From Pegea sp. RAD2-039 (lineage: Eukaryota > Chordata > Thaliacea > Salpida > Salpidae): a stretch of 64,000 bases of DNA. The notes under the pieces are model-generated. The model worked only from the letters and a program-made list of their open reading frames with translations. It ran no database searches and was not told where the DNA came from. Location: assembly GCA_034620365.1 (NCBI GenBank), contig JAQGEQ010000041.1:620001-684000 (forward strand). Direction: 5' to 3'. This document shows positions 43,475 to 48,086 of the stretch, one piece after another (position 1 is the first letter of the stretch; each line of letters starts with the position of its first letter). The translations under genes and the position numbers were made by a program.

Positions 43475-45305
43475 ATGGGCTACAACTATCGAGCTTTTTT
43501 GGCCCTAATGGTATTATCGTCTTTGGCGCTGAACCTTGTTGACAGTTCTAAAACAGATCGACTATTGAGAAAACGCCGGTCGTATTATGTAAGCAGCTTT
43601 GTAATTTTCTGGCGAAGACTTGGCTGTTACAGATTGCCATGAAGTATTTGATGACTTTCCAATAAATTAACTTTTTAATTCAACTATTAAAAATTAAATT
43701 ATTAAAAATGTTGATAGTACAAATTTAAAAAATGTTTCAATAATGCAAGACAAAAAAGTTTCTTCAAATATTTCACATTGAAACTGCTTTATAAATATTT
43801 TATAAAAAAAGTAAAATATCTAAACTGTGAGGTAAACTATTTTTTAGCCTGGAGGAAGTTACCCTATAAGTTGGTCATGGTGGTCTTCATGGTCAGACTC
43901 AAACGGTAATACCTGGTCCAGTTGGAAAAGCTGGTCTAGATGGGACTCCCCAACTTCTTGGACAAGCTGGTCTGGTTGGACCAATTGGAACAACTGGAAT
44001 AACTGGAACAACTGGAATAATTGGAATAATTGGTACAGTTGGAATAACTGGAACAACTGGAACAACTGGAATAACTGGAACAACTGGTACAATTGGAATA
44101 ACTGGAATAACTGGAACAACTGGAACAATTGGAACAACTGGTATAACTGGTACAGATGGAGTAATTGGAGCAGGAACAACAATAGGTGGAACTGGACACC
44201 ATCGATGCCTCGCACACGTATATCAGTTACCGATCCACCATTACCTCCATCAAATCCAAGAAATGATGATAGAAACATCGGTGAGAACTTCTAAAATAAT
44301 TTTGAATGATTTTTCATCATCTCATTGAAAGAAGTGTAATCTTCAGAAGATTAAGAGTTTTAAATCAAACTTTTTGTAGTGAAAACATTTGGAGGAAATT
44401 CGAAAGGTGCTAAATGCATATTTCCTTTCAACTACCAAAGAACTACTCACTATACATGTACTACTAGTGGAAGAAGAGATGGTTTGCGGTGGTGTGCGAC
44501 AACATCTAATTATGACACAGATGGGAAATACGGCTTCTGCATTGAACAAGGTAAATTGAAGGGAAATTTTTTGAACATTTTAACAACAAATTTTCCAAAC
44601 TTTTTTAATTGTAATTATTTTATAGAGGTATCTGGACCTGTGACAACCAGCAATGGAAGCTGCGTATTTCCTTTCATATATTACAATAAAATTTATTATG
44701 AATGTACGACTGCTGGTAATAATCCTGGTAATGATGAACGATGGTGCTCCCTCAAATGGACTTATGGAGGAAGTCATCACAAAGCAATTTGTGGACCAAG
44801 TAAATACTATTAATAACCTTCAATGATAAAAGCCACTGAATTTGGATTATTGTAGATAAGAAAACGTTTGCTGGAACTGCTAATGGAGCCAAGTGTCATG
44901 AAAGCTACATCTTTCAGGGACAACATTACCAAGGCTGCATCACTGAAGGTAGAACAGATGATAATAGATGGTGTGCAACTACAAAAAATTATGACAACGA
45001 CGGCCAATGGGGCTTCTGTGTGATGGAAGGTAGACTAAACTTGACTGTTCTTAATTCATGTTGATTCGTCAACTTTCACAGATTTCGACAATTCTCTTTT
45101 GACAAAGTCTCGACAGTTTTGTACTTTCCCATTTATCTATGGAAATACAATTTATTATGACTGTGTACAAGATGGTAGCCATGGAAACCAACGTTGGTGT
45201 TCTTTGACACACGATTACAACAAAGATCATAAATACGATATCTGTATGGTGCATTGGCCTGAGGTATACCATTGTGGAAATATTTCTACAAAATTGTTAT
45301 CTTAA
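43475..45305 (+). CDS. Secreted protein with tryptophan-ladder (W-N-N)n domain and four FN2 modules
   Basis: I do not know a named family for the whole protein. The six exons are 43475-43588, 43848-44280, 44380-44550, 44626-44799, 44856-45029 and 45082-45305, giving 429 residues in frame with GT-AG introns. Exon 1 encodes a signal peptide (MGYNYRAFLALMVLSSLAL) and a basic RKRR site, possibly furin-cleaved. Exon 2 (residues 39-182) contains 34 Trp, including 24 in a row at every third position (Trp76-Trp145), 15 of them in Asn-Asn-Trp triplets. Exons 3-6 each encode one fibronectin type II module (C-x-F-P-F-x-Y ... W-C ... C), in phase 1 like the FN2 exons of the MMPs. FN2 modules typically bind collagen, gelatin or phospholipid head groups. 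Four in a row recall sperm-binding FN2 proteins of vertebrates, but the Trp domain does not. A later donor-like GTATAC near the end leaves open an alternative 3' end. A polyadenylation signal AATAAA is at 45,509-45,514. Confidence 0.85.
43959..44168 (+). repeat. 9-bp TGG-AAY-AAY coding minisatellite (Trp ladder)
   Basis: Twenty-four consecutive triplets ending in TGG, read in the frame of exon 2. The Asn codons alternate between AAC and AAT, so almost all differences between units are synonymous. At residues 83, 101, 119 and 137 the first Asn of a triplet is replaced (Thr, Tyr, Tyr, Tyr), revealing a 54-bp / 18-residue higher-order unit of six triplets. The opposite strand is also open here (LFQ-type repeats), a shadow of the 9-bp period. 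Confidence 0.93.
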
Positions 45306-46423: not shown

Positions 46424-48086
46424 TTATTCCCAAATCTTTTCACAGATGCCGAAGCTATAATCTCTGTTATAGTTATGGGTCAAAGAGCACCAGGGTCTGC
46501 CATCTGCCCTTCCATCAGTTGTACAGTTGTAGTAAATATTATCTCCATAGATAAAAGGGAAGGTGCAAAAAAAGCGGTCAGTAGTCAAAATATTCGGCTC
46601 AAATTCTGCAATTTAAAAATCATTTCAACATTCGATATTCAAATTCGAATTTATTATTAACCTTCCATAATACAAAAACCCCATTTTCCATCGGTGTCAT
46701 AATTTCTTGTGGTTGCGCACCAGGGGTTGCCATCGTTTCTGCCCACTGTAGTACAGCCTTGATAATATTTACCTTTAAACATGTAGCTCTCATGGCATTT
46801 GCCACCATATCCATTTCCGGCAAACGTTTCAAAAGCTGAATTCAAAACAAATTTTAACGAATTTGAATTGCAGCTGTCATAAAACTTACTTGATGGACAA
46901 GAGGCTTTGTGTGCTTCTTCATTATAGCTCCAGTTAAGAGAACACCATTTTTCACCCTCAGCCGAATCCTCATCAGTACATTCATAATGAACTTTTTTAT
47001 TGTAAATAAATGGGAACACACAGCTGCCTTTATTGGTTTCAACTGGTCCAGAAACATCTGTCCAAAGTTTTAGAAAGGTTATTGTTATGAAGATCATTTA
47101 TATTTTTAGATAATAATTACAACCGAAGTTAAGCGCTTGGCTGCAATAACAAGTTATATGTGAAAGTAAGAGAGAGATTGTTATGTGTGAAGATGATTAT
47201 ATCAATTAAAGTTTTTAAACTGAAAATATTTTTGCAAGCTTTGTGCTTGATGAACTTAAAATGTTATAGAATAGCAAATAATCCAAAAACACCTTGCTCG
47301 ATACAGAATCCAAACATTTGATCATTGTCATAGCTATCAGTTGATGAACACCATCTTAACCCATCTCTTCTGCCATCAGTGGTACACGAATAGTAGTAAA
47401 TGTTTCGATACATAAAAGGAAAAACGCATTGGGAACCATTTGCGTTTCCACCAAAGGTTGTCACTGCAAAGAATTTCTATTTCAATGAATGACAAATTTA
47501 GGTGGATTTTTATAAAAGTTTCTATTTTTAACAAAATTCAAATATATGTTGAACTTTATACGGCATAAAAAGCATAATAACTTTCTGGTTAAACTTTAAA
47601 ACGTTTTTTTGTCATAATATGTTGATATTTTTTTATTATCTAATAAAATTATAGCTTAAATAAAATCTCATCTAAAACTAAGCTTCTAAAGATGTTTTTT
47701 TTTACTAAAATTACGATATCTTTAAACTATTAACCATTTTTGTTCCCTTGCTGACCGAAAATATTGTACCACGAAGAGCCAGTATTTGACCAACTGCTCC
47801 AGCTGCTCCAGTTTGAAAGCTATCATAGAGAAAGTTCAAGATTTACGTGACTTAAAAGTATGTTAAGTTTTAAACTTGATTATACAGCTGAATACCACTT
47901 TGGGTAGAGTTTTATTTATTTTTGCTTTATTACAAAAATTAAAATTTTGCAAAATGTATATAAATTAGAAAGGTTTTATTTACACTGGTTACTACTTACA
48001 TTGTCATAATACGTACTGCTCACGAAAGGAGAGGTAAAAGCTGACAGAGCTACCAGCATAAAAACAACTTGAAGACCTCCACTCAT
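46424..48086 (-). CDS. Secreted four-FN2-module protein with short TSR-like Trp motif
   Basis: Paralogue of the convergent plus-strand gene. The six exons are 48086-48000, 47819-47735, 47463-47293, 47057-46890, 46835-46662 and 46605-46424, giving 288 residues in frame. Exon 1 is a signal peptide ([19 protein letters not shown]). Exon 2 is only 85 bp, against 433 bp in the partner, and encodes [17 protein letters not shown], a Trp-x-x-Trp-x-x-Trp motif like the first strand of a thrombospondin type 1 repeat but without its cysteines. Exons 3-6 are FN2 modules, each on one phase-1 exon. Module 3 has CHESYMF where modules normally read C-x-F-P-F, a deviation shared with module 3 of the partner (CHESYIF), so it predates their split. 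It is likely extracellular; the ligand is unknown. One donor (GTTAAT) is weak but is the only one that keeps the frame. Confidence 0.85.

Follow-up and report, generated by a model that had tools for sequence, protein, structure and literature searches.

The window, by which we mean the whole stretch of 64,000 nucleotides that was analysed, carries on its plus strand a six-exon gene (gene A) whose model encodes 429 amino acids, 41 of them Trp. Its second exon specifies a ladder of regularly spaced Trp residues, and the four exons that follow each specify an FN2 module. The features are as follows:

43475..43588, plus strand: gene A exon 1, 38 residues comprising Met, a hydrophobic leader and RLLRKRRSYY
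Donor of gene A exon 1, plus strand: TATTAT followed by gtaagc, phase 0
43848..44280, plus strand: gene A exon 2, 433 nt (144 codons and 1 base), phase 0 in, phase 1 out
43848..43958, plus strand: pre-ladder part of exon 2, 5' of the ladder, PGGSYPISWSWWSSWSDSNGNTWSSWKSWSRWDSPTS
43959..44168, plus strand: Trp ladder, 24 Trp at i+3, 9-bp units of TGGAAYAAY type
44380..44550, plus strand: gene A exon 3, FN2 module 1
44626..44799, plus strand: gene A exon 4, FN2 module 2
44856..45029, plus strand: gene A exon 5, FN2 module 3
45082..45305, plus strand: gene A exon 6, FN2 module 4 and stop codon

Read by eye, the leader is a putative signal peptide, and RLLRKRRSYY contains a putative basic, furin-like site. 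Exon 2 encodes 34 Trp, 43 Asn and no Cys, and the ladder accounts for 70 translated residues (W76-W145 in the gene model, residues 38-107 of the exon). The exon holds 28 overlapping WxxW sequons, 15 of which are WNNW; the residue after the Trp is Asn in 15 of the 28, Ser/Thr in 8, Tyr in 4 and Lys in 1. Translation and the gene model reproduce exactly what a first-pass annotation had counted, namely 24 Trp at i+3, 34 Trp in the exon, the span W76-W145 and 15 Asn-Asn-Trp triplets, which match the 15 WNNW. The four FN2 modules that it placed after exon 2 were likewise recovered by Pfam profile search (PF00040), with four modules in gene A and four in a paralogue, gene B, all above the curated cut-off of 22.2 bits. 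Tandem Repeats Finder reports a 9-bp tandem array at 43977-44154, with 19.8 copies, 84% matches and no indels. The probability of 24 independent TGG codons in a row is near 3e-51 at 30% GC, and the ladder is therefore not a product of chance; since repeats originate by duplication, the figure shows a repeat and nothing more.

Arrays of TGG at 9-bp intervals are not rare in this genome: four TGG at this spacing occur 301 times (169 on the plus and 132 on the minus strand; 147 in a reversed control), and several such places among the matches listed are collagen GXY repeats one base off. The frame therefore needed testing, and this was done in three ways, by splice phases, by the variation between units, and by the retention of the exon in the paralogue. 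Of the three frames, only that of the Trp fits both the phase-0 end of exon 1 and the phase-1 start of exon 3. The GXY frame of exon 2 meets a stop at 43867 and another where exon 3 joins, the third remaining frame has 15 stops, and skipping of exon 2 leads to an immediate stop in gene A (TGA) and in gene B alike. Across 23 ladder units, the Trp frame has 20 minority letters at its third positions, the GXY frame 6 and the remaining frame 8, while in an 18-unit core the corresponding counts are 13, 3 and 1 (17 in total), the units being repeat copies and thus not independent of each other. In eight control rows, representing seven distinct GXY stretches (two phage GXT arrays and five collagen stretches of this genome), the GXY third-position count was the highest every time, albeit by some small margins (for example, 18 vs 15); these control loci were picked by us, and an eighth, L060, contained no run of sufficient length.

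It would accordingly take a very improbable set of circumstances for the ladder to be an artefact of reading a collagen-like GXY repeat with an offset of one base. Such a reading draws on the collagen stretches among the TGG-every-9 arrays, on the two matches to the ladder in IMG/VR, both of them collagen-like phage genes out of frame, and on the GXY frame itself, which is open for 152 codons (43870-44328) and extends beyond the end of exon 2. It is opposed by the two stops of that frame, with the leader and the FN2 modules joined only by the Trp frame, by the third-position test, which points the opposite way, and by gene B, which links its leader and FN2 modules through a Trp frame of its own. 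A collagen-like repeat as the coding frame was rejected on the stops and the third-position test. The coding status and frame that had been claimed for the exon are supported indirectly by the agreement of splice phases, third-position variation and a paralogous exon with the same place and phases. The ladder is thus coding by every computational test run here, unusual, and partly explained; transcription, splicing and secretion of the product are presumed from the gene model.

Gene B lies on the minus strand, tail to tail with gene A, with its exons within 48086-46424 and a model of 288 amino acids that includes four FN2 modules:

48000..48086, minus strand: gene B exon 1, leader of 29 residues
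47735..47819, minus strand: gene B exon 2, short linker with WSSWSSW, phase 0 in, phase 1 out
47463-47293, minus strand: gene B exon 3, FN2 module
47057-46890, minus strand: gene B exon 4, FN2 module
46835-46662, minus strand: gene B exon 5, FN2 module
46605-46424, minus strand: gene B exon 6, FN2 module

Exon 2 of gene B is equal in position and phases to that of gene A and encodes 28 residues, with 4 Trp, 2 WxxW and no Cys. The FN2 parts of the two genes share 136 of 231 aligned residues, with a dN of 0.30 and a dS of about 2.1 by our own Nei-Gojobori count, and this dS, near saturation, indicates that the duplication is old. In a FastTree tree of 29 distinct FN2 modules, built without support values, modules 1, 2 and 3 of the two genes are sisters; the fourth modules are not, and a small clade holds both of them together with module 2. 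The simplest history would thus be that a gene carrying a short Trp linker was duplicated long ago and that the 9-bp expansion came later, in gene A; the opposite course, shortening in gene B, may have been taken instead.

AlphaFold2, run from a single sequence on the first 143 residues of exon 2, returned a mean pLDDT of 54.6, and the model, built as it is without homologues, provides a hint of structure at best. Strands are predicted at exon residues 5-16 and 22-33, and the resulting Trp-rich hairpin ahead of the ladder (exon residues 5-33, window 43860-43946) is modelled at high confidence from that one sequence, with block means of 94 over exon residues 11-20 and 92 over 21-30. Block means lie between 43 and 52 in the ladder region (exon residues 41-110), where a short helix is predicted with low confidence at exon residues 92-102. 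Aromatic stacking of the ladder, which had been put forward as one possible role, finds little support in a model that is confident only for the hairpin before it.

The genome searched (G000) comprises 105.7 Mb in 387 contigs. Within it TGGAAYAAYTGGAAYAAYTGG occurs 12 times, 12 of 12 within gene A exon 2, and the WNN core is thus unique in the genome. The 70-residue ladder used as a query gave two matches at E<=0.001, the ladder itself and one at L002; the latter was dropped, as it shows 24% identity, contains a stop and looked to us like part of a Pro-rich repeat in a different gene. A composite Trp-rich query gave three matches at E<=1, these being genes A and B and the dropped place, and since it missed a collagen gene that carries a Trp tract, short ladders may escape protein searches. 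A WSSW-type pattern with four Trp yielded two overlapping matches, both in this collagen gene, against 5 in the reversed control, and with three Trp it yielded 23 against 25, so that the match numbers show no excess and it is the encoded content that matters. Seven of the 23 three-Trp matches were read: the collagen gene on contig C3 accounts for three, which overlap, gene B (C80) for one, and C9, C63 and C120 for one apiece, the last three being TSR-like Trp strands by their sequence, C120 by motif alone. Most of the remaining 16 look like GXY or Gly-rich repeats, judged by their letters. At G000:C27:214485-215072 there is also a long array in which TGG recurs every 9 bp, TGGGTCACATGGGGTACA being one of its units.

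Pfam finds 59 FN2 matches in the genome. A scan for the Trp motif, which reached 1.5 kb around those FN2 matches that had a locus and left out L001 and L033-L044 (all at the ladder), was positive in four of 30 loci of about 3.1 kb each (L006, L017, L022 and L023); all four hold exon 2 of gene A or B, and two of them also showed a chance row on the opposite strand. For two longer upstream FN2 stretches, no ladder was seen among the open stretches listed. Genes A and B seem to be the only clusters of four FN2 modules visible, the FN2 counts being lower bounds. Further afield, gene A exon 2 had no Pfam match at E<=1, and its first 143 codons none to a solved structure at E<=10. Among 113 pattern stretches from prokaryotes no relative was confirmed, while the 55 from viruses included two confirmed matches, the phage genes mentioned above, which were set aside as collagen-like and out of frame. 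No title or abstract opening in the literature covered dealt with a Trp ladder joined to FN2 modules, which, with subscription papers outside the scope, is weak evidence of novelty. As to the source, which had been supposed to be a tunicate, a single GH6 match was found (27.5 bits against a cut-off of 27), in a stretch that matches Cel6 structures (best E 4.7e-7). A GH6 gene in an animal genome is a feature that we take to be a marker of tunicates, and the genome is on this one match probably that of a tunicate, unless the match stems from contamination.

The collagen-type gene, at C3:4276296 (L068, L081), encodes a leader, RKRRRS, a Trp tract and then downstream collagen repeats (Pfam E 4.1e-17 for joined pieces), the splice between tract and collagen part being read by eye. 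It has in common with gene A the order of leader, basic site, Trp ladder and matrix module. This WSSW tract before collagen, together with the short form in sister gene B, suggests that Trp ladders free of cysteine recur at the N-termini of this animal's matrix proteins. TSR-like sequences also occur in the genome, one stretch carrying four Trp, and the WSSWSSW of gene B resembles their Trp strands. One could therefore see in the ladder the decayed remnant of a thrombospondin type 1 repeat, whose Trp strand was captured as a linker exon, an origin that we judge improbable: exon 2 is devoid of Cys in both genes, that of gene A has no Pfam match, and convergence on a short motif is an equally simple account. 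Membership of the TSR family was rejected on the absence of the disulfide cysteines in both genes and of a profile match in gene A.

According to the literature, enzymes of the DPY19 type mannosylate the leading Trp of WxxW while the chain is still unfolded; at +1 after that Trp they favour small residues over larger side chains (PMC12990085, PMC10154233). The WxxW of TSRs is given as their recognition motif (PMC12990085), as the annotation had also described it. Leu474 and its equivalents are stated to dictate sequon specificity (PMC12990085), and the roles of the sequon and catalytic residues of worm DPY-19 are treated in the same two sources (PMC12990085, PMC10154233). All eight DPY19 matches in the present genome (8/8) fall at one locus, where alignments show Glu71, Arg211, Arg471, Lys473 and Leu474 of worm DPY-19 to be conserved. 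On the substrate side, there are 28 WxxW sequons in exon 2 of gene A and 2 in that of gene B, behind a putative leader. Given the conserved sequon residues and the preference for a small residue at +1, the Ser/Thr sites (8 of 28) should be accepted, while Asn or Tyr follows the Trp in 19 of the 28 and renders the WNNW core (15 sites), like the 4 WYxW sites, uncertain as a target.

The ascidian Leptoclinides dubius has yielded free C-mannosyl-tryptophan, the role of which had not been elucidated according to the same source (PMC3297002); a review likewise cites ascidians as a source of the compound (PMC8433626). This fits the reading proposed here and proves nothing for the product of gene A, as TSR-like proteins could supply the free compound and L. 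dubius need not be the species analysed here. The potential for C-mannosylation that had been suggested for the segment thus gains from the enzyme, its conserved residues and the ascidian compound, while dense modification of the whole ladder loses by the residues at +1. The best reading of the sequence is that the tract would be C-mannosylated at least at its Ser/Thr sequons. A more ambitious version, in which DPY19 modifies the whole ladder into a sugar-coated indole rod attached to collagen-binding FN2 modules, and in which proteins of this new, C-glycan-dense class are, with the WSSW collagen, a main source of the free C-mannosyl-Trp isolated from ascidians, is in our estimation unlikely; such a glycan-dense ladder is attractive and unproven.

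Taken together, we favour, at about an even chance of being right, a secreted matrix protein in which a Trp tract expanded by slippage is C-mannosylated by DPY19 and joined to matrix-binding FN2 modules. The product would consist of a leader, a basic RKRR site, a cysteine-free, Trp-rich N-terminal tract and four FN2 modules. Its ancestral tract may have been a short WSSWSSW linker, as retained in gene B, from which slippage of the 9-bp unit in gene A, with the frame preserved, would have produced the 24 Trp at i+3. In the ER, DPY19 would add a C-linked mannose to the first Trp of WxxW on the unfolded chain, the W-S/T-x-W sequons being the likeliest targets, and the extended tract, with its sugars and indoles, could provide a tether for adhesion or hydration, with the FN2 modules binding a collagen-like matrix. 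Computation shows which frame is coding, that the paralogue has the corresponding exon, that repeat expansion is the simplest history, and that a DPY19 locus with its residues is present; expression, secretion, modification and the matrix role are what we infer from this.

The length of the ladder may, however, have arisen by neutral slippage. A neutral coding minisatellite, in which a disordered linker that tolerates Trp and Asn grew by replication slippage to a length that performs no particular work, is somewhat unlikely, though it agrees with the indel-free 9-bp array, the mere four Trp in the linker of sister gene B, the confinement of the core pattern to this one place in the genome, and the low model confidence for the ladder. 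On the other hand, the units are not fresh copies, with 13 of 17 minority letters in the 18-unit core at third positions of the Trp frame, and no TGG has been lost over 24 units, which suggests selection for Trp, although this invariance is partly due to the definition of the ladder, and duplicated units are not independent. Alternatively, an unglycosylated tract might serve as an aromatic sticker, its Trp and Asn causing the protein to self-associate, to form gels or to be cross-linked by oxidation within the matrix or tunic. The departure of the 15 Asn sequons from the published enzyme preference would accord with this, as would the Trp-rich hairpin modelled ahead of the ladder; that hairpin, however, comes from a single sequence, and partial acceptance of the tract is expected from a genome with DPY19, its sequon residues conserved, and 8 of 28 sequons with Ser/Thr at +1. 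We consider a sticker of this kind a doubtful proposition, about as improbable as the decayed TSR. If translated as modelled, gene A would offer 28 overlapping sequons in one exon compared with three in an extended TSR, a natural test of DPY19 on tandem sites and on varied residues after Trp. It would also point to a protein, open to testing, from which the free C-mannosyl-Trp of an ascidian could come.

Among known systems, PDC-109 (PDB 1h8p) resembles genes A and B in having a leader and tandem FN2 modules with no catalytic domain, an arrangement that ELSPBP1, which we take to be an FN2-only secreted protein, presumably shares; we know of no Trp tract in either. The best-scoring solved relatives of the FN2 part are chains of the gelatinases MMP2 and MMP9 (1eak, 1l6j and 1ck7). 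Genes A and B differ from these, and from the neighbouring MMP array, in their four FN2 modules, Trp linker, stop after module 4 and lack of a catalytic exon. The mussel foot protein Pvfp-1 of Perna viridis has, to our knowledge, a different repeat and neither FN2 modules nor an i+3 Trp ladder. Type I cytokine receptors are known for their WSXWS motif, and WSSWS units are likewise present in genes A and B. Gene A differs from these receptors in that Pfam detected no fibronectin type III fold in its scanned parts, and in that the motif is repeated and not single. These receptors are named as C-mannosylated in a passage of PMC12990085, and Pvfp-1 is described as a secreted adhesive with glycosylated Trp (PMC8433626). 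The C-mannosylated WxxWxxWxxC of TSRs is like the ladder in its i+3 Trp, its WSSW units and its DPY19 motif (PMC12990085). According to the same source, WxxWxxWxxC is the most extended form, and TSRs have three disulfides and an Arg-bearing partner strand (PMC12990085); the gene A ladder, in contrast, has 24 Trp, no Cys and no Pfam match.

Adjoining genes A and B, five tandem genes with three FN2 modules each occupy window 3512-39402 on the minus strand. In the one unit of this MMP array that was read, the last FN2 exon continues into the matrixin HEFGH motif. The stretches of the array that were compared are 93.5-97.3% identical, and a 39-bp minisatellite of 2.3 to 4.3 copies recurs across it (window 7211, 19035, 26739 and 34515). 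Elsewhere in the genome, one open frame of 1709 codons at G000:C264:373197-377228 contains three FN2 matches, and five more fall in two similar clusters at G000:C128:34632-35429 and 107971-108767, where three of the five have internal stops, and these clusters are possibly pseudogenes.
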